Below, piece after piece: positions 3,207-35,473 of a DNA stretch of 37,749 bases (positions are counted from its first letter, which is position 1; every line of letters starts with the position of its first letter). The stretch covers positions 1 to 37,749 of the forward strand of contig CANFMY010000006.1 in the NCBI GenBank assembly GCA_947448375.1. The letters run 5' to 3'. The DNA is from Comamonadaceae bacterium (GTDB lineage: Bacteria > Pseudomonadota > Gammaproteobacteria > Burkholderiales > Burkholderiaceae_C). The notes under the pieces are model-generated. The model saw only the letters and a program-made list of their open reading frames with translations. It was not told the origin of the DNA and ran no database searches. A program made the position numbers and the translations under genes.

Positions 3207-4316
3207 TTAGGCCTTTTTCTTCGCGAAGTAGAAATCATAGGCCATCTTGAAGTTGACCATGTAGTCGCTTTGCCACTGGCCGGCGCGCTGGGCGTACACG
3301 CGCTGCGAATCCATCACGCGCTTGAAGAACGGGTTCTCGGCGGCCTTCTTCTCCGAGACTTTGTCCCAGGCTTCAAGTTGCGCCCGCAGGATGGCGTCGG
3401 GCGTCTTGTAGAACTTGATACCCTGCTTCTTCATCTCCTCGTAATCCTTGGAGTTGCGGTCGATGGCTTTCCAGCTCATCTCCGCGGAGCTGGCCTGCAC
3501 CGAGTAATCGATGATCGACTTGAGTTCAGTGGGCAGGGTGTTGTACTTGGTCTTGTTGAACAGGATTTCGAACTGTTCGCCGCTCTGGTGGAAGCTTTGC
3601 AGCATGCAGTTCTTGACCACATCGGGAAAGCCCAGCACGCGGTCGGAAGAGGCGTTGTTGAATTCGGCCGCGTCGATCAGACCGCGATCCAGCGCGGGCA
3701 CGATCTCGCCACCCGGCAGCGGGTTGACCGACACACCCAGCTCATTGAAGATGTCCACGGCCAGTCCCACCGTGCGGTACTTCAGACCTTTGAGGTCACC
3801 CACCTTGGCGATGGGCTTTTTGAACCAGCCCAGCGGCTGGGTGGGCATTGGGCCGTAGACCAGAGACACCACGTCGATGTTGAGGGACTTGTAGATTTCT
3901 TCCAGGATGGCCTTGCCGCCACCATAGTTGTGCCACGACAGCACCATGTTGGGGTCCATGCCGAACGCCGGGCCAGAGCCCCACAGCGCCAGCGCGGTGT
4001 TCTTGCCGTAGTGATAGGCCAGCACGCCGTGACCACCGTCCAGGGTGCCTTTGTTGACCGCGTCGAGCAGCTGGAAGGCGGGAACCACGGCGCCGGCAGG
4101 CAGCACTTCGATCTTGAGGCGACCGCTGGCCATGTCATTGACCTTCTTGGCGAAATCGTTGGCGTACTCGTGGAAGATGTCCTTGGCCGGCCAGGTGCTC
4201 TGGAAGCGGAAAGTGACGGTATCGGCGCGCGACACCATGGGGGCGCTCATGGCGCCAGCGGCAACGGCAGCGCCTTTGAGCAGGTTACGGCGGCGGGGGG
4301 TTTTGGACTCGGTCAT
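3207..4316 (-). CDS. dctP: TRAP transporter substrate-binding protein (DctP family), Tat signal peptide
   Basis: 369 aa; RRRNLLKGAAVAAGAMSAP twin-arginine signal; FQSTWPAKDIFHEYANDFAKKVNDMASGRLKIEVLPAGAVVPAF typical of DctP. Confidence 0.9.
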   Translation of the reverse strand: MTESKTPRRRNLLKGAAVAAGAMSAPMVSRADTVTFRFQSTWPAKDIFHEYANDFAKKVNDMASGRLKIEVLPAGAVVPAFQLLDAVNKGTLDGGHGVLAYHYGKNTALALWGSGPAFGMDPNMVLSWHNYGGGKAILEEIYKSLNIDVVSLVYGPMPTQPLGWFKKPIAKVGDLKGLKYRTVGLAVDIFNELGVSVNPLPGGEIVPALDRGLIDAAEFNNASSDRVLGFPDVVKNCMLQSFHQSGEQFEILFNKTKYNTLPTELKSIIDYSVQASSAEMSWKAIDRNSKDYEEMKKQGIKFYKTPDAILRAQLEAWDKVSEKKAAENPFFKRVMDSQRVYAQRAGQWQSDYMVNFKMAYDFYFAKKKA

Positions 4317-4333
4317 GCGTTCTCCTGGTAATG

Positions 4334-7414: not shown

Positions 7415-8118
7415 GCGGACTTGGCTCCTGCCGCGGTGGCGTCGGCGCCATCAGTGCCATGAGTGGGGTCTTCGTAAGCCAGCAGCAGCAGTCGCAGGTG
7501 CTCGCGCGGTTCGACTTGGAGGTAGGGCAGGATCAGCCCCAGCACATGGCGTGCACCGCGCAGCAAGGCGCTTTGGGCTTGCGCGTCTTCCAGGGCATGG
7601 CGTGGGTCGCGCGCATATTCGTAGCTGAGCCACCAGGTCAGCATCACCACCATCTGGGTGGCACACAGATCGCTCTCCTCCGGGCTGATGGACAGGGCGC
7701 CCGTGTGCTCCAGGTGGGCGAGTACGGCGCGAAAGGCTTGCCGCTTGAGTTCCAGCACTGCCTGGATGTCGGTTTCCAGGCGGCGGTTGCGGGTGAGCAA
7801 GTCGCCCAGGTCGCGGTACAAAAACCGGTACTCCCACACCCGCTCGAAGAGGCTGTGCATGAAGAACCAGGCGTCCTCGACATCACGAACCTCGGGGGCG
7901 GCGCTCAAGAGGGGCAGCAGCGCTTTCTGGTAACGCTCGTAAAGCGAGTTGATCAACTCGTCTTTGGCCGGGTAGTGGTAATACAGGTTGCCCGGGCTGA
8001 TGCGCAATTCGGCAGCGATCAGCGTGGTGGAGACATTGGGTTCGCCAAAACGATTGAACAGCGCCAGCGTGACCTCAAGGATCCGCTCTGCGGTGCGTCG
8101 GGGCGCCTTCTTCGCCAT
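7411..8118 (-). CDS. TetR/AcrR family transcriptional regulator
   Basis: N-terminal HTH: RTAERILEVTLALFNRFGEPNVSTTLIAAELRISPGNLYYHYPAKDELINSLYERY. Confidence 0.88.
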   Translation of the reverse strand: MAKKAPRRTAERILEVTLALFNRFGEPNVSTTLIAAELRISPGNLYYHYPAKDELINSLYERYQKALLPLLSAAPEVRDVEDAWFFMHSLFERVWEYRFLYRDLGDLLTRNRRLETDIQAVLELKRQAFRAVLAHLEHTGALSISPEESDLCATQMVVMLTWWLSYEYARDPRHALEDAQAQSALLRGARHVLGLILPYLQVEPREHLRLLLLAYEDPTHGTDGADATAAGAKSA

Positions 8119-8188
8119 GGTGTTGGGTCTCGTGGGGGTCTGTGGGCAGGGCCCTGTGCGCCGACTCTACCCCAAAGTGTCGGGCCCG

Positions 8189-10255
8189 TCACTCGGACGA
8201 TTGGGCTGTCACTTGTACCGCACAGTCGTAGAAGGTTGGCGCGCGGCCCAGGTCCGTCAGGGCCTGGCTGGTGAGTTCGTTCACGTTGGTGCCGTTCAAG
8301 CCATGGCGGCGCCACCAGATGCCCAAGCCCACCACCACGCCCGCTCGGGTGCGGTCGGTGACGCGGGCACGGCAGACATGACGTCCGCGCGCATTGAAGA
8401 CCGTCACGGTCTGACCGTCTTGCACACCGCGGGCCAGTGCGTCCTGCGGATGAATCTCCACCAGGGGTTCACCTTCGACATCACGCAGGCTGGTCACGTT
8501 GACGAAGGTCGAGTTCAGGAAGTGGCGTGCCGGTGGCGAGATCATGGCCAGCGGATACGTATCGCTTGAAGCCGGTGCCTCGTAATTGGGCAGGTAGTCG
8601 GGCAAGCCATCGAGGCCCAAGGCTTCAAGGCGCTCGCTCATGAATTCGCAACGCCCTGAGGGCGTGGGGAACTGTCCGTGAGCGAACGGGGCCTCGGGCC
8701 CGGGAATGCTGGCAAAGCCTTGTGCCATCAAGGTGGCGAAGGGCACAAACTCATGGCCGTCCGCTTGCGTCAATGCTTGGCGGCACAGGCTCTCGTCATC
8801 CTCGGCAAAGCACGCGTCATCAAACCCCATGTGGCGCGCCAGTGCACGGAAGATGTCGGTGTTGGTGCGGGCCTGGCCCAGTGGGGCAATGGCGGGTCGG
8901 TTCAGCACCACGTCAGTATGGCCATAGGTGCCATGCACGTCCCAGTGCTCGAGCTGGGTGGTGGCGGGCAGCAGGTAGTCGGCGTAGTCGGCGGTGTCGG
9001 TGCGAAAGTGCTCCAGCACCACCGTGAACAGGTCTTCGCGGGCGAAGCCCGCCACCACGCGCGCCGAGTCGGGTGCCACGGCCACCGGGTTGCTGTTGTA
9101 GACCACCAGCGCGCGCACCGGGGCATGGGGCGCATCAGGGGCGAGGTGGTTGCCAATGGTGCTCATGTTGAGCACGCGCGGTCGGCGCGAGCCCAGCAGA
9201 TCCGGGCGTTGCAGCGCCGCGGTGTTGAAACGCAGATGCCCCGAGTTGCTGAGCAACGCGCCACCCGCGCGATGTCGCCAGGCACCTGTCAAGGCCGGCA
9301 GGCAGGCGATAGCACGAACCGCATTGCCCCCGCCGCGTGCCCGCTGCACGCCATAGTTCAGGCGGATGGCCGCGGGTTGTGTGGTGCCGTAGTCGCGCGC
9401 CAGGCGCCGGATGGCGGGTGCGTCGAGTCCGCAGACCTCGGCGGCGCGCTCGGGTGGCCAGGTCAGGGCCCGGGCCTTGAGCTCGGGCCAGCCCAGCGTG
9501 TGTTGCGCCAGGTAGTCGTGGTCCAGCCAGTCATGCACGATCAACTCGTGCATGAGTGCCAGGGCCAGTGCGGCATCCGTGCCCGGTCGCAAGGCCAGGT
9601 GTTCGTCACACTTGTCGGCGGTTTCCGTGCGTCGCGGGTCGATGCAGACCAGCCGTGCGCCGTGGCGTTTGGCTTGCTGTGCCAGACGCCAGAAATGCAG
9701 GTTGCTGCCAACGGAATTGCTGCCCCAGATGAGGATCAGCTTGGCCTCGGCGAACCACTCCATCTTCATGCCCAGCTTGCCGCCCACGGTGTGCAACAGC
9801 GCCTCGGCTCCGGCACTCGCGCAGATGGTGCGGTCCAGGCGCGAGGCGCCCAGGCGGTGAAAAAACCGTGCAGCCATGGATTCGCCCTGCACCTGCCCCA
9901 TGGTGCCGGCGTAGCTGTAGGGCAGGATGGCTTCAGGGTCAACAGCCGCCAGATCCCCCAGGCGGCGGGCGATGTCTTGCAGGGCTTCATCCCAGGTGAC
10001 GGGCTCAAAGCGCGCGTTCGGGCCTTTGGGGCCCACGCGGCGCAGGGGCTGCAACAAGCGCTCAGGGTGGTAGGTGCGCTCGGTGTAGCGAGCCACCTTG
10101 GTGCACAGCACGCCGGCGGTGTGCGGATGGTCGGGGTTGCCCTGCACGCGCACCGCCACGCCCTCTTTCACGGTGGTGACCAGCGAGCAGGTGTCGGGGC
10201 AGTCGTGCGGGCAGGCGCCCAGGACCTGGGCGTCGGTCGGGGAGGGGTGCGTCAT
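8189..10255 (-). CDS. Molybdopterin-containing oxidoreductase with 4Fe-4S motif
   Basis: Likely start MTHPSPTDAQVLGACPHDCPDTCSLVTTV (ATG at 10255); C-x3-C-x3-C motif; GSNSVGSNLHFWRLAQQAKRHGARLVCIDPRRTETADKCD. Confidence 0.85.
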   Translation of the reverse strand: MTHPSPTDAQVLGACPHDCPDTCSLVTTVKEGVAVRVQGNPDHPHTAGVLCTKVARYTERTYHPERLLQPLRRVGPKGPNARFEPVTWDEALQDIARRLGDLAAVDPEAILPYSYAGTMGQVQGESMAARFFHRLGASRLDRTICASAGAEALLHTVGGKLGMKMEWFAEAKLILIWGSNSVGSNLHFWRLAQQAKRHGARLVCIDPRRTETADKCDEHLALRPGTDAALALALMHELIVHDWLDHDYLAQHTLGWPELKARALTWPPERAAEVCGLDAPAIRRLARDYGTTQPAAIRLNYGVQRARGGGNAVRAIACLPALTGAWRHRAGGALLSNSGHLRFNTAALQRPDLLGSRRPRVLNMSTIGNHLAPDAPHAPVRALVVYNSNPVAVAPDSARVVAGFAREDLFTVVLEHFRTDTADYADYLLPATTQLEHWDVHGTYGHTDVVLNRPAIAPLGQARTNTDIFRALARHMGFDDACFAEDDESLCRQALTQADGHEFVPFATLMAQGFASIPGPEAPFAHGQFPTPSGRCEFMSERLEALGLDGLPDYLPNYEAPASSDTYPLAMISPPARHFLNSTFVNVTSLRDVEGEPLVEIHPQDALARGVQDGQTVTVFNARGRHVCRARVTDRTRAGVVVGLGIWWRRHGLNGTNVNELTSQALTDLGRAPTFYDCAVQVTAQSSE

Positions 10256-18108: not shown

Positions 18109-18783
18109 TCAGCCGTGCCAGGGCCTGCCGCGCATCCACGCCTGATCCGCATGCCGCAACACGGACAGATCGCCGCGCGTGTCGCCATAGGCGTGCAACT
18201 CCCAGGCTTCGCGCGGCTGGCCTTGCTGGGCAAACCAGGCTTGCAACCGTCGCCATTTTTCCTCGCCGTGGCAGTTGGGTGTGGACATCTGTCCGGTGCA
18301 GCGTCCGTCCTGCATCGCCAGTCCGGTGCAGATCAGGTGGGGAATGTCCAGGGCCCGCGCCACTGCGCCCAGATACACATCCGCAGAGGCGCTCAGCAGC
18401 ACGCAGGTATGCCCGGCTTGCTGGTGCGCCTGCAACTCGTCCAGGGCCCAGGTGTTGAGGTGGCGAGGCAGCCACGTCTGCACCAGACGCTCGGCGCTCT
18501 TGTCGAGCCCATCTTGCGGCGCTCCGCGCAAGGTCTGTTGCAACAAGGCCGCCTTGGCCTGGTGGTTGGACACCAGGCGCAGCACATACGCCATCAGCAC
18601 CGGGGCCTGTCGCACCAGGGCCCACCCCCAACCCCGTGTACCCAGATGAAGATGCAAAAACGCGCCCAGGCTATCGGCCGTGGTGAGCGTGCCGTCAAAG
18701 TCGAACACGGCCAGCACCGGGCGTTCGGTGGCGGCAATCGTCTCGGCCGTCGCATGGGAGCGCTCGGTCATCGGCCCACTCAT
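18109..18783 (-). CDS. HAD-IB family phosphatase (SerB-like)
   Basis: AVFDFDGTLTTADSLGAFL; LLSASADVYL; YGDTRGDLSVLRHAD; ATG at 18783 overlaps stop of upstream GT39 gene (ATGA). Confidence 0.88.
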   Translation of the reverse strand: MSGPMTERSHATAETIAATERPVLAVFDFDGTLTTADSLGAFLHLHLGTRGWGWALVRQAPVLMAYVLRLVSNHQAKAALLQQTLRGAPQDGLDKSAERLVQTWLPRHLNTWALDELQAHQQAGHTCVLLSASADVYLGAVARALDIPHLICTGLAMQDGRCTGQMSTPNCHGEEKWRRLQAWFAQQGQPREAWELHAYGDTRGDLSVLRHADQAWMRGRPWHG

Positions 18784-20324
18784 CGCGTGTCGCCGTCCGG
18801 ACGTGGACACCGCACCTGCCCGCAGTAGCGCTCGCAAAATGGACACCCCGTCATGGGCAACCAGGCGGGGATGTTGTAGTAGCGCTTGAAAATGTCGCCC
18901 AGCACTTGCTGCCGGTAGGTCTCGAACTTGAAGCCCAGCCCCTCGACGACAAAAAACCGCGCGTCCGATTGCGCCAGTTCCAACAGCGAGACGCGGTCAA
19001 AGTAGGGCGCGTAATCTGCCAGTTCGGGGCGGCTGAAACTGATGATGCGAACTTTCTGGCCGTCAAAACGCGAATAGTCCACCAGCAGGTCGTCTTGCCG
19101 AGCATGAAACTTGCCCAAGCCAAACACGGGCACGTAGGTTTTCAGGGTGTGGCCATAAATGGCGGCTGGCGTGTAGGCGGTGGCCATGATGACGGTGCCG
19201 GGCTGGCTGACTTGCTGCAAAAGCGCCTCGGTGCGGTAGCTGCGCACGATCTCCGGATAAATTTTCACGTTCTTCCAGTCGGCCAGCTCGCGCGTGTACA
19301 TCCCGCCCACCACCAGCAGATGCAGGCCCAGGAAGACGGCCAGGTAGCGTCCCGCTCGCACCAGCGCCTCTCGGGGTAAAGCCAGCGCCACGGCAGCAAA
19401 CATCAGCGGATAAAAACTCAGTACCCAGTGCAGGCCAATCACCTTCTTGATCGACAACACGGCAAAAAAGGCCATGGGCACCAGGACCAGACACGCCAAC
19501 AACCGCTGCCGGCCCAACACCTGTCGCAGCGCCCCCCGGTGTTTCACACCCAGCCACAGCACGCCGGGGGTGAGCAGGTAGGCCCAGGTCAGCAGGTACA
19601 GCCCCGGCTTGTGCCAACCGAACACCTCACCCTCGTTGCGGTTGTAGACATTGAACATGATGTTGGACCAACCGTGCCCCATGTTCCACCAGAGGTTGAG
19701 TGTCGGCCCCGGCAGTGCGGCCAGCACCAGCACCAGCAAACCCGCCCAGCGTTCGCGCCGCACCAGCGCGAAATAGACCAGGTAGCTCAGTCCCAGCACC
19801 ACCGAGAAATACTTGGAGAGGAAAGCGCAGCCGATGAACACGCCGCTCAGGGCATACATCGTCCAGGCCCGGCCATCCAGGCGCGGGCGCACTTCGGCGT
19901 GGATCAGACACGCCACCGACAGCATGGACCACAGCATCAACGGCGTGTCGGTGGTGACCAGGGTGTTGATCCAGTTGATGGGCGTGAGCCAGAACAGCAA
20001 GGTCGCCCAAGGTGCCCGCTCGCGGTCCCAGGCCGACACCCCCCACCACAGCACCCAACCTTGCACCAATGGCAGCAGCACAATGGGCAAGCGAATGGAC
20101 CAGGTGCTGTCCCCCAGCAGGTGCAACATGGTGGCGATGAACCAGCCCACCATGGGGGGGTGGTCGTAGTAGCCCCAATCGGGGGCCACGCCCCACCAGT
20201 AGAAAAAGGCCTCGTCGCCGGTGATGGGGAACGTGGCGCTGATGAAAAGCCGCAGCACCAGCGAGAGGCCCGCCACGGCCCACAGGGCGCGTTGCATGGG
20301 AGGGGTCATGAAAGACGGATTCAT
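18780..20324 (-). CDS. Glycosyltransferase family 39 / ArnT-like membrane protein
   Basis: MNPSFMTPPMQRALWAVAGLSLVLRLFISATFPITGDEAFFYWWGVAPDWGYYDHPPMVGWFIATML; many TM segments. Confidence 0.87.
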   Translation of the reverse strand: MNPSFMTPPMQRALWAVAGLSLVLRLFISATFPITGDEAFFYWWGVAPDWGYYDHPPMVGWFIATMLHLLGDSTWSIRLPIVLLPLVQGWVLWWGVSAWDRERAPWATLLFWLTPINWINTLVTTDTPLMLWSMLSVACLIHAEVRPRLDGRAWTMYALSGVFIGCAFLSKYFSVVLGLSYLVYFALVRRERWAGLLVLVLAALPGPTLNLWWNMGHGWSNIMFNVYNRNEGEVFGWHKPGLYLLTWAYLLTPGVLWLGVKHRGALRQVLGRQRLLACLVLVPMAFFAVLSIKKVIGLHWVLSFYPLMFAAVALALPREALVRAGRYLAVFLGLHLLVVGGMYTRELADWKNVKIYPEIVRSYRTEALLQQVSQPGTVIMATAYTPAAIYGHTLKTYVPVFGLGKFHARQDDLLVDYSRFDGQKVRIISFSRPELADYAPYFDRVSLLELAQSDARFFVVEGLGFKFETYRQQVLGDIFKRYYNIPAWLPMTGCPFCERYCGQVRCPRPDGDTR

Positions 20325-21262
20325 GGCGACGAACGAGGACGATCCATCCGCCAACCATACAACAGCGCCACCAGGCCCACGGCAACGGCCAGCCACAAGG
20401 TCAGCAAGCGCACTTGCAGGGTCAGCAGCAGGGCCAGCGAGGTGCTCACGCCTTGTTGGGTGAACAGTCCCACCAGGCTGGCCTCCGTGCCGCCCAATCC
20501 GGCCGGCAGGGTGGTGAGGGCGCCCGCCACCATGGACAAGGCGTACCAGGACGTGGCTTGCAGCGCATCGGCCAGCAGGCCGTTGTGACGGCACAGGAGC
20601 CACACCGCCACGCCTTGTGCGCTCCAGGCCAGCAGGGTCAGACTCCAGGTGAGCCCCGGTTGGTGCTGGAGGCACTGCTGCGCTTGTTCGAGACCCAGCA
20701 CGTGTTGGACCTTGGCCGGAATCAGACGCAAGCCCCACTGCCAGGCCAGGCTTTGCATCGACAACCAGATGAGCGTGGTGACCAGGACGCACAGCAGCAT
20801 CACCACCAGGCCGGACGCATCAAAGGGTGACCACAGCAAGGCCGGCACGGCCAACAGCACCAGCGCCAGCAAATCCTGCCACCGCTCGGCGGCGAATACC
20901 GCCACGCTGGTGGAGACCGGCAGTGGACTCGGGCGCATGAGCAAGCCACGCGCCGCTTCGCCCACATTGCCGGGTGTCGGTGTCAGGCTGTACCCCGCCA
21001 GGTAGACCCGCAGGCCCCGTCGCCACGGGGTGGGGTGGCCACAGGCCGCTACCCACAGTCGCCAGCGTTGCCCTCGCAAGACATAGCTCACCAGGCACAA
21101 CAGCGTGGCGAGCGCCCCGTCCGTGGACAACAGGCCACGCCACACACCGGGTGCTTGCGGGTCTCCCCACCACTGCCAGGCGGCCTGACACAAGCCCAGC
21201 ACCACCAGGGCCACCAGGGCCAGCAGGAGCAGGCTGCGTCCGAGTGAGCCCAGGGGTGTCAC
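20321..21262 (-). CDS. Flippase-like / lysylphosphatidylglycerol synthase TM-domain family protein
   Basis: GTG start at 21262; RWRLWVAACGHPTPWRRGLRVYLAGYSLTPTPGNVGEAARGLLM; ERWQDLLALVLL; LPAGLGGTEASLVGLF. Confidence 0.8.
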   Translation of the reverse strand: MTPLGSLGRSLLLLALVALVVLGLCQAAWQWWGDPQAPGVWRGLLSTDGALATLLCLVSYVLRGQRWRLWVAACGHPTPWRRGLRVYLAGYSLTPTPGNVGEAARGLLMRPSPLPVSTSVAVFAAERWQDLLALVLLAVPALLWSPFDASGLVVMLLCVLVTTLIWLSMQSLAWQWGLRLIPAKVQHVLGLEQAQQCLQHQPGLTWSLTLLAWSAQGVAVWLLCRHNGLLADALQATSWYALSMVAGALTTLPAGLGGTEASLVGLFTQQGVSTSLALLLTLQVRLLTLWLAVAVGLVALLYGWRMDRPRSSP

Positions 21263-22137
21263 GCGCGTGGACTCGCAAACACCAGCAACCAAGCCACCGC
21301 CGACAACACGATCCAGCGGTCGCGCAGCAGGTCGCGCGCAAAGTCCTCGGCCTGGCCGCGGTGCACCTGGAACACGTAGCGCAGCGCGCCAAACACCACC
21401 AGCGGAATCGTCATCCACAGGCGTGGGCCATGACGCTCCAGCGCCTCGGGGGCGGTGGCAAAGAGGCTGTAGGTCAGCAAGGTGGCGGTGAGGGTGACCC
21501 CCACGCACAGGTCGAGAAAAGCAGGTGGGTAATGCGCCATCACGGCGCGTTGTTGTTCGCTGGCATGAAAGCTCTCGGCGCGACGCTTGGAAAACCCGAG
21601 AAACAGCGTGACAAACAAGCCCGTGAGCAGCAGCCAGTGCGAGGGCTGAATGCCGATGGCCCAGGTGCCCGCCAGCAGGCGCAACATGAAACCGGCGGCG
21701 ATGATGAATACATCGACCACCGGCACTTGCTTCAAGCGCAGGGTGTAGGCGGTGTTCAGCACCAGGTAGGCGGCGAGCAGGCCCATGAAAAGCGGCGTGG
21801 TCTGCGCGGCCAGCCACGCGGCACCCGCCAGACAGGCCAGGCCCACCGCCGCGCCTTCCGTGCCGGAGATGGCTCCACTGGCCAAAGGACGATGGCGCTT
21901 GCGCGGGTGCTGCGCATCGTCGTGGCGGTCGAGCCAATCGTTGAGCACATACACCGCGCTGGACGCCAGGCAAAACGCGGCGGCCGACCACAAGGCCAGA
22001 TGCACCAGATCGGCCTGGTGCCACAAGCGGCCAAACAACAAACCGGCCAGCACGAAACCGTTTTTCAGCCACTGGTGCGGGCGCAACAGTCGCAGCCAGG
22101 CGAGGGGGCGCGATGCGGTGGACGGTGGCATGCTCAT
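21259..22137 (-). CDS. UbiA-family prenyltransferase resembling decaprenyl-phosphate phosphoribosyltransferase (DPPR synthase)
   Basis: LRPHQWLKNGFVLAGLLF; NDWLDRHDDAQHPRKRHRPLASG (NDxxDxxxD); YTLRLKQVPVVDVFIIAAGFMLRLLAG; GFSKRRAE. Confidence 0.85.
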   Translation of the reverse strand: MSMPPSTASRPLAWLRLLRPHQWLKNGFVLAGLLFGRLWHQADLVHLALWSAAAFCLASSAVYVLNDWLDRHDDAQHPRKRHRPLASGAISGTEGAAVGLACLAGAAWLAAQTTPLFMGLLAAYLVLNTAYTLRLKQVPVVDVFIIAAGFMLRLLAGTWAIGIQPSHWLLLTGLFVTLFLGFSKRRAESFHASEQQRAVMAHYPPAFLDLCVGVTLTATLLTYSLFATAPEALERHGPRLWMTIPLVVFGALRYVFQVHRGQAEDFARDLLRDRWIVLSAVAWLLVFASPRA

Positions 22138-22195
22138 GACCGGATTATCTCAGGCGCTCTGCGGGTGAGCGGCGGGTCGTGGGGTTGCGTCGTTC

Positions 22196-22336
22196 GATCA
22201 ATCGCGTGCAACTCACTCGCCCTGCGCGTTCAAGAGGGGTCGAGTCAGGGCGCAATGGCAGATCAACTGGGGGTCAAAAGGGAGCCAATAGGTAGTCAAC
22301 AGGGAGTTAAAAGTGGGCAATGGGCGATCAATAGGC
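22196..22336. repeat. Degenerate ~11-bp phased direct repeats (consensus RGTCAAYAGGG) upstream of the ubiA-type operon
   Basis: GATCAACTGGG-GGTCAAAAGGG-AGCCAATAGGT-AGTCAACAGGG-AGTTAAAAGTG-GGCAATGGGC-GATCAATAGGC from 22261; further in-phase units at 22228 and 22250, near-phase at 22196. Confidence 0.7.
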
Positions 22337-22382
22337 TACCTACAGACGACCTAACGCCGCGCCTGGGCCGCAGCAGGGAAGT

Positions 22383-34615: not shown

Positions 34616-34639
34616 GGGGCGTCCTTCCTCAACGCGCCA

Positions 34640-35473
34640 TCAGCGCGCCATCAACGCGCGGGCATCCCGCTCATACTTCTGCAACCGTTTGAGCGCGGAC
34701 TGCCGTTGCTCGGCGCTGGTGCTGTTGTGCATCTGCGCCATGGCGCGGCAGTTGAAGTCGTTCAGCCGGTCCACATAAGCCTGGTGGGCGGGCGCCGGTG
34801 ACATCACACTGCGTTGTAGCAAGCCCCGAATCTGGCGGCGCAGTTCATCGGGCGCAGGCCGCTGCTGTTGCAAGCCTCGCAGCGTGGCGACGATGTCTTC
34901 CTGTCGGCGCAGGCGAATCGCTTCGCCCAGCGAGACGTCGTAGGGCGAGCGCTCGGCTTGCTGACGCAGCAGGCGTTGCTGCTGGGCGTCGAGCCGTCCG
35001 TAAAAATCCTCGACGCGCTCGCGCGTTCGCTGTATCCGCTTTTTCAGCAACTCGTCCGCAGCCGGCTCCAGCCAATCGCGTCGCCAGTCGCGGTGGTGGC
35101 GTTCCAGCTTGTTGCGCAGGTGCTCGAGTTGTTCGGCTGTTAGGCTGCCCGCCAGGCGCGCCATGCCGGCATCGGCGGTATCGGCCAGGGTGGGCAGGCT
35201 CTCCCAGATGTCGCGGTAGACCTTGCAGGATTGTTCCTCGCTCACATCCTGCAGCGCCATCGACTGCAGTTGCTGCAGCCACTGCGCGTAACGGGGCAAC
35301 TGGGTGCTGCGATGCCACTGCTGGTAGGCCTGCAGGTCGTCAATCAGCACCGGCCGCTGCTCGGTGTTGACGTCCACAAACCGGTCGATCCACCAATACG
35401 CCAGATCGGGGCTGTTGTTGTAAACGGTTTGCAACATGCTGCACCCGCCCAACACGAGCGGCATCAACCCCAT
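34640..35473 (-). CDS. DUF6279-like lipoprotein of unknown function
   Basis: MGLMPLVLGGCSMLQTVYNNSPDLAYWWIDRFVDVNTEQ with lipobox LGGC; start codon choice inferred. Confidence 0.7.
   Translation of the reverse strand: MGLMPLVLGGCSMLQTVYNNSPDLAYWWIDRFVDVNTEQRPVLIDDLQAYQQWHRSTQLPRYAQWLQQLQSMALQDVSEEQSCKVYRDIWESLPTLADTADAGMARLAGSLTAEQLEHLRNKLERHHRDWRRDWLEPAADELLKKRIQRTRERVEDFYGRLDAQQQRLLRQQAERSPYDVSLGEAIRLRRQEDIVATLRGLQQQRPAPDELRRQIRGLLQRSVMSPAPAHQAYVDRLNDFNCRAMAQMHNSTSAEQRQSALKRLQKYERDARALMAR

Follow-up and report, generated by a model that had tools for sequence, protein, structure and literature searches.

Systems that load a pentose onto a lipid carrier

In Citrobacter youngae, a HAD-UbiA fusion (ORF15) makes lipid-phosphate-ribofuranose from phosphoribosyl pyrophosphate (PRPP), a small EmrE/ArnE-like transporter (ORF14) has been proposed to flip it, and a GT-C glycosyltransferase of family GT136 (ORF12, to which ArnT was named the closest by sequence) uses it, these parts of the O1/O2 systems coming with or without an epimerase (ORF13) (Kelly, 2024; PMC11127046). 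In such systems a short-chain dehydrogenase/reductase (SDR) epimerase turns ribose to xylose, while DprE1/DprE2 homologs go with arabinose (PMC11127046). The other well described case is the mycobacterial decaprenylphosphoryl-arabinose (DPA) pathway, with Rv3806c, Rv3807c, DprE1/DprE2, Rv3789 and the Emb/Aft enzymes (PMC10994848; PMC11127046). Here we describe a four-gene operon (UbiA, flippase-like protein, GT39-like protein, HAD phosphatase) on the minus strand, at positions 18109-22137 of a 37,749-nucleotide stretch of contig CANFMY010000006.1 (hereafter the window) from a Comamonadaceae bacterium (assembly GCA_947448375.1). An earlier note on this DNA had drawn its precedents from Rv3806c, NoeC and pilin arabinosylation and overlooked the Citrobacter O1/O2 system, which comes nearest.

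We read the operon as encoding all the parts of a three-component system for pentofuranosylation outside the cytoplasm, in which ribose would be loaded on a lipid, flipped and put on a surface acceptor, and we give this reading a probability of roughly 0.77. The UbiA protein would move 5-phosphoribose from PRPP onto polyprenyl phosphate (probably undecaprenyl phosphate), the HAD enzyme would strip the 5-phosphate to give polyprenyl-P-D-ribofuranose, the MprF-type membrane protein would flip this lipid to the periplasmic face, and the ArnT-like GT-C enzyme would pass the pentose to the surface acceptor. Where relatives combine this type of GT-C with DprE1/DprE2, it would transfer D-arabinofuranose. 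This is close to the pathway that the earlier note had proposed, and the family-level assignments and the conserved gene order speak for it. Along with the catalytic and substrate residues, the co-occurrence of the genes, the GT-C and flippase folds and the lack of a DprE1-grade protein, they make up the sequence and comparative evidence from which we infer the reactions, the polyprenol, the flipping, the sugar and the acceptor.

Like in Citrobacter, a predicted PRPP-dependent UbiA synthase, a HAD phosphatase, a dedicated flippase candidate and an ArnT-like GT-C are encoded together, here in one conserved operon, and like in the ribose version of that system there is no epimerase in the set. 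Unlike in Citrobacter, HAD is encoded apart from UbiA, an MprF-type protein (LPG_synthase_TM) instead of a small EmrE/ArnE-like transporter is the flippase candidate, and the operon lies outside an O-antigen locus; the GT-C is of the PMT_2 type and may be likened to the GT136 protein ORF12 by way of ArnT, the first fold match of the one and the closest by sequence to the other. With the mycobacterial DPA pathway the operon shares a homologous first enzyme with a conserved active site and a GT-C last step, but its genome has no DprE1, and a HAD protein and an MprF-type protein stand where mycobacteria have the unrelated phosphatase Rv3807c and the GtrA-family Rv3789. The pathway type is already published (Citrobacter, PNAS 2024), and the window operon is a new variant of it, with an MprF-type flippase candidate. 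The main text of Kelly (2024) mentions neither LPG_synthase_TM nor GT39 (PMC11127046), and our literature search, supplements aside, turned up no account of such clusters with LPG_synthase_TM proteins.

The four genes and their products

The four consecutive minus-strand genes joined by 4-nt overlaps that the earlier note had described are borne out by the open reading frames (ORFs) and the sequence: GTGA at 21259-21262 (UbiA stop, flippase start), ATGA at 20321-20324 (flippase stop, GT39 start) and ATGA at 18780-18783 (GT39 stop, HAD start). They are real coding genes under purifying selection, since against the orthologous locus of Limnohabitans ZLKRG10 (L031) dN/dS was 0.059 for UbiA, 0.167 for the flippase, 0.102 for GT39 and 0.145 for HAD, with dS of ca. 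0.9-1.15, or roughly one change per synonymous site. Tight coupling is kept in relatives, the overlap not being exactly 4 nt in every case; in L031 it is 4 nt between UbiA and the flippase, there is a 2-nt gap between the flippase and GT39 under the chosen start, and the HAD ORF (7657-8298) begins 4 nt inside that of GT39, which ends at 7660. The Pfam matches of all four proteins exceed the gathering cut-offs.

The first gene (21259-22137, 292 aa) encodes a UbiA-superfamily protein for which the sequence evidence supports a polyprenyl-phosphate phosphoribosyltransferase (PPPRS, DPPRS-like) of the Rv3806c kind. It could be argued that it is instead an ordinary prenyltransferase of quinone, heme or specialised metabolism with coincidental neighbours, as it has the Pfam UbiA domain (103 bits) and the NDxxD motif. 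We consider this very improbable, because profiles, residues and tree all place the protein elsewhere. It scores highest, with 221.6 bits, against the NCBIfam model for decaprenyl-phosphate phosphoribosyltransferase, whose cut-off of 234 it misses by 12; beyond this and the PRK08238 fusion family the next model reached 50.6 bits (heme O synthase), UbiA itself 36.1, and no quinone, heme or chlorophyll model more than 51. A gammaproteobacterial ortholog (in L044) exceeds the same cut-off with 280.8 bits. The only relatives in the PDB are the Rv3806c structures of DPPR synthase (8j8j/8j8k). The residues of Rv3806c for PRPP, Mg and decaprenyl phosphate have been mapped (Nat Microbiol 2024; PMC10994848), and 12 of 15 substrate and metal residues of the M. 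tuberculosis enzyme are kept, namely R19, K25, Y63, N66, D67, D70, D74, K80, R83, Y131, K136 and K184 for R22, K28, Y70, N73, D74, D77, D81, K87, R90, Y138, K143 and K191. They include the NDxxDxxxD motif (N66-D67-D70-D74) which, like HPxKRxRP, the earlier note had picked out; both are present. The PRPP-site lysines and the tyrosine among them (K28, K87, K191 and Y70 of Rv3806c) are all absent from the UbiA and ChlG-type proteins of the same genome. In a tree made by a quick method, with long outgroup branches, the protein sits with a Comamonadaceae group inside the phosphoribosyltransferases, apart from the three outgroup proteins. The grouping with DPPR synthases expected in the earlier note, as opposed to the genome's own UbiA, CyoE and ChlG-type enzymes, is therefore what profile, PDB relatives, residues and tree all indicate, and the conserved operon and the co-occurrence of its genes (see below) also speak against coincidental neighbours.

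As for mobile elements, a single match to UbiA was found in a faecal bacteriophage record (MT837543.1, 4889-5734; 36% identity over 93% of the query), and GT39 had no plasmid or phage match. A phage-borne system is mentioned by Kelly (2024; PMC11127046). Similar UbiA-HAD pairs, with UbiA 35-37% identical, occur in Bacteroidales, Barnesiella and Prevotella (L086, L088, L090), loci in which no relative of GT39 or of the flippase was found.

The last gene (18109-18783, 224 aa, with a second possible start, GTG at 18846, further upstream) encodes a HAD-IB phosphatase, the proposed 5'-phosphoribose phosphatase (PRP). Membership of the phosphatase family is clear from PF12710 (143.5 bits), TIGR01490 (136.4 bits, cut-off 98.3) and the intact motifs I-IV, in which D28-D30, S131/S133, K176 and D201/D205 are invariant or almost so among 19 homologs. 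The comparison with SerB that the earlier note had suggested went the other way (25 bits against a cut-off of 144), and a histidinol-phosphatase was likewise rejected (65.9 and 55.3 bits against cut-offs of 280 and 400).

For the two remaining proteins, sequence searches of the PDB, with single sequences or profiles, gave no match, and structure models were built for this reason. The GT39-like protein (18780-20324, 514 aa) belongs to PMT_2 (PF13231, 71.1 bits), and its AlphaFold model (pLDDT 91) found ArnT first (E 1.5e-7, TM-score 0.62) and then Pmt4, followed by weaker matches (E 3e-3 to 5e-3) to AglB, PglB and the arabinofuranosyltransferase AftB. The model predicts an ArnT/PMT GT-C fold with an acidic residue after the first transmembrane helix, where D37-E38 is invariant in 32 homologs. 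Near the C-terminus (window about 18790-18850) the homolog consensus also has a cysteine motif, TGCxFCxRY...RC, of which C494 is nearly invariant. The flippase-like protein (20321-21262, 313 aa, GTG start) carries an LPG_synthase_TM domain (PF03706, 117.6 bits; TIGR00374, 70 bits, above its cut-off), and its model (pLDDT 85) matched only MprF structures in Foldseek (E 2e-4, TM-score 0.57-0.60), in keeping with a predicted MprF flippase fold.

Upstream of UbiA, the intergenic region 22138-22382 (minus strand) is the presumed promoter region, in which no match to the sigma-70 consensus was found. It holds an array of TTG triplets spaced 11 bp (22209-22331, minus strand), with a run of five at 22253-22299; among 20000 random placements 4 were phased this well, the run of five is unique in the genome, and no such array was seen in the upstream sequence of L031. 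Elsewhere in the window (34629-34659) there is a short tandem array of TCAACGCGCCA, whose period is likewise 11. The flanking genes searched are housekeeping ones (ybeY, phoH, ruvB, dtd, a cation transporter, tyrS), with no acceptor candidate among them.

Gene order, co-occurrence and a possible flippase exchange

Polaromonas, Hylemonella, Limnohabitans and other Comamonadaceae have the same gene order, UbiA-flippase-GT39-HAD, so that the conservation on which the earlier note had made its proposal depend holds across the family. Six gammaproteobacterial loci have GT39-DprE1-DprE2-HAD-UbiA-flippase in a row, one of them (L044) with one extra flippase-like protein upstream. Among 151 family genomes, many of the surveyed genomes being fragmented, PPPRS-type UbiA was found in 32, and all carriers of GT39 (17/17), of the flippase (10/10) and of real DprE1 (15/15, taken as above 240 bits) fall within these 32, with hypergeometric p of 5e-14, 5e-8 and 3e-12, values that ignore shared ancestry. 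If the four-gene clade is set aside, GT39 (8/8) and DprE1 (13/13) remain tied to PPPRS, and the flippase weakly so (3/3, p 0.004). Conserved order and co-occurrence far exceed chance.

Several observations, besides the shared ancestry that the p-values leave aside, weigh against a complete ribofuranosylation operon. The UbiA score falls slightly short of the NCBIfam equivalog cut-off, and the Rv3806c ligand residues Q135 and Y157 are replaced by N and F, as is K208 by A. One relative (G104) retains UbiA-GT39 only, with neither flippase nor HAD, another (G049) has the operon without the flippase, and the Rhodocyclales loci hold, among the parts looked for, GT39-UbiA only; HAD and flippase are therefore not strictly obligate neighbours. 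Lastly, two four-gene genomes (G049 and G082) carry DprE1 elsewhere in the genome. As to the Rhodocyclales, in one locus (L058) an AroG-type DAHP synthase (3258-4325) precedes GT39-UbiA, and the others have at the equivalent place an ORF of 355-356 aa of the same cluster, not individually annotated; this is probably plain synteny.

The protein that flips polyprenyl-phosphate-pentoses is an unsettled matter, and for the GtrA-family Rv3789 it is disputed whether it is a flippase or an anchor (PMC7389260). In 23 DprE1-bearing loci we found an MprF-type protein in 9, GtrA in 12, both in none and neither in 2, the last two being one genome region. In G049, where the operon has no flippase, GtrA adjoins DprE1. 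This mutual exclusion beside DprE1 favours a flippase role for both, pointing to the MprF-type protein and GtrA as interchangeable flippases of polyprenyl-phosphate-pentoses, and it offers a clean test of the question.

The probable sugar and its proposed donor modules

There is no DprE1 in the window's genome, where the best model match was partial (70 bits, residues 14-186 only), as compared with about 245-460 bits for real DprE1 in relatives (415-460 in the six gammaproteobacteria). For DprE2 there were only generic SDR matches of at most 85 bits. The earlier note had seen neither enzyme in the window; for DprE1 this extends to the whole genome, while for DprE2 the statement has to be limited to the lack of anything above the generic SDR level. 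DprE1 is also missing from 10 further cluster-bearing genomes of Comamonadaceae and from the sampled genomes of the GT39-UbiA type (mostly Rhodocyclales). The DprE1 and DprE2 pair of the arabinofuranose pathway thus does not appear to be encoded in this genome and, with DprE1 missing, D-ribofuranose is the simplest and most likely product in this bacterium. One could accept the donor chemistry and yet suppose that a sugar other than ribose is transferred, the lipid-linked ribose being converted beforehand by an epimerase encoded elsewhere, either a GalE-like one (to xylofuranose) or an unrecognised oxidase/reductase pair (to arabinofuranose). Citrobacter O2 does make xylofuranose via an SDR epimerase and its GT-C takes both sugars (PMC11127046), the window's genome has many SDR proteins, and there are the two four-gene genomes with DprE1 elsewhere. 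Nevertheless, the absence of DprE1-grade proteins from this and the 10 further genomes, and the fact that none of the epimerases searched for adjoins the operon in this lineage, make such a conversion unlikely in our view, if worth keeping in mind.

A different situation is found within the genus. Seven congeners, among them G081 with a complete genome, have a GT39 of 58-63% identity in the slot between ybeY and dtd, where the window and L031 have all four genes, and lack UbiA, flippase and HAD at this place. Taken by itself, this would suit the idea that GT39 acts on another lipid-linked sugar (for example a hexose or 4-amino-4-deoxyarabinose), that the operon is shared only by history and that the LPG_synthase_TM protein is not a flippase. 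However, each of these seven congeners carries UbiA, GtrA and DprE1 elsewhere (and six of them DprE2; in G516 the contig end falls within DprE1). Besides, among 61 genus genomes PPPRS was found in 9 of the 10 with GT39, the exception (G492) having a GT39 cut by the contig end with HAD adjacent, and the flippase and GtrA exclude each other in DprE1 loci. We regard this idea as improbable.

Returning to a pentose donor, these UbiA(PRK08238-type)-GtrA-DprE1-DprE2 modules, found within the genus and the family, share with the window the predicted entry step to polyprenyl-P-ribose, and differ by a phosphatase fused to UbiA, a GtrA flippase candidate and the arabinose epimerases. The fusion was checked in L115 (of G081), where UbiA is a PRK08238-type HAD-UbiA protein, and open frames of about 485-520 aa suggest the same in the other six congeners. 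No GT-C was found in domain scans of L115 (fusion and one neighbour) and L143 (eight neighbouring ORFs), the two modules scanned of the seven. In the GT39 tree the window, L031 and the congeners group together at 99% SH-aLRT. Since the seven congeners keep GT39 in the slot and the UbiA-GtrA-DprE1(-DprE2) module elsewhere, the pattern suggests that the donor module has been exchanged around a retained GT-C, ribose in one case and arabinose in the other. A broader version of this view is one on which we would take an even bet, namely that the parts are interchangeable, GT39 being fed either by the ribose module (UbiA, MprF-type flippase, HAD) or by the unlinked arabinose module (UbiA, GtrA, DprE1, DprE2), with the MprF-type protein and GtrA as alternative flippases, and that the same surface structure would be switched between ribofuranose and arabinofuranose.

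The set of Comamonadaceae, Rhodocyclales and gammaproteobacterial loci extends the range over which mycobacteria-like chemistry of lipid-linked pentoses is known, and if one GT-C has been served by different donor modules within a single genus, as it appears, a change from ribose to arabinose would be predicted on the surface of freshwater bacteria.

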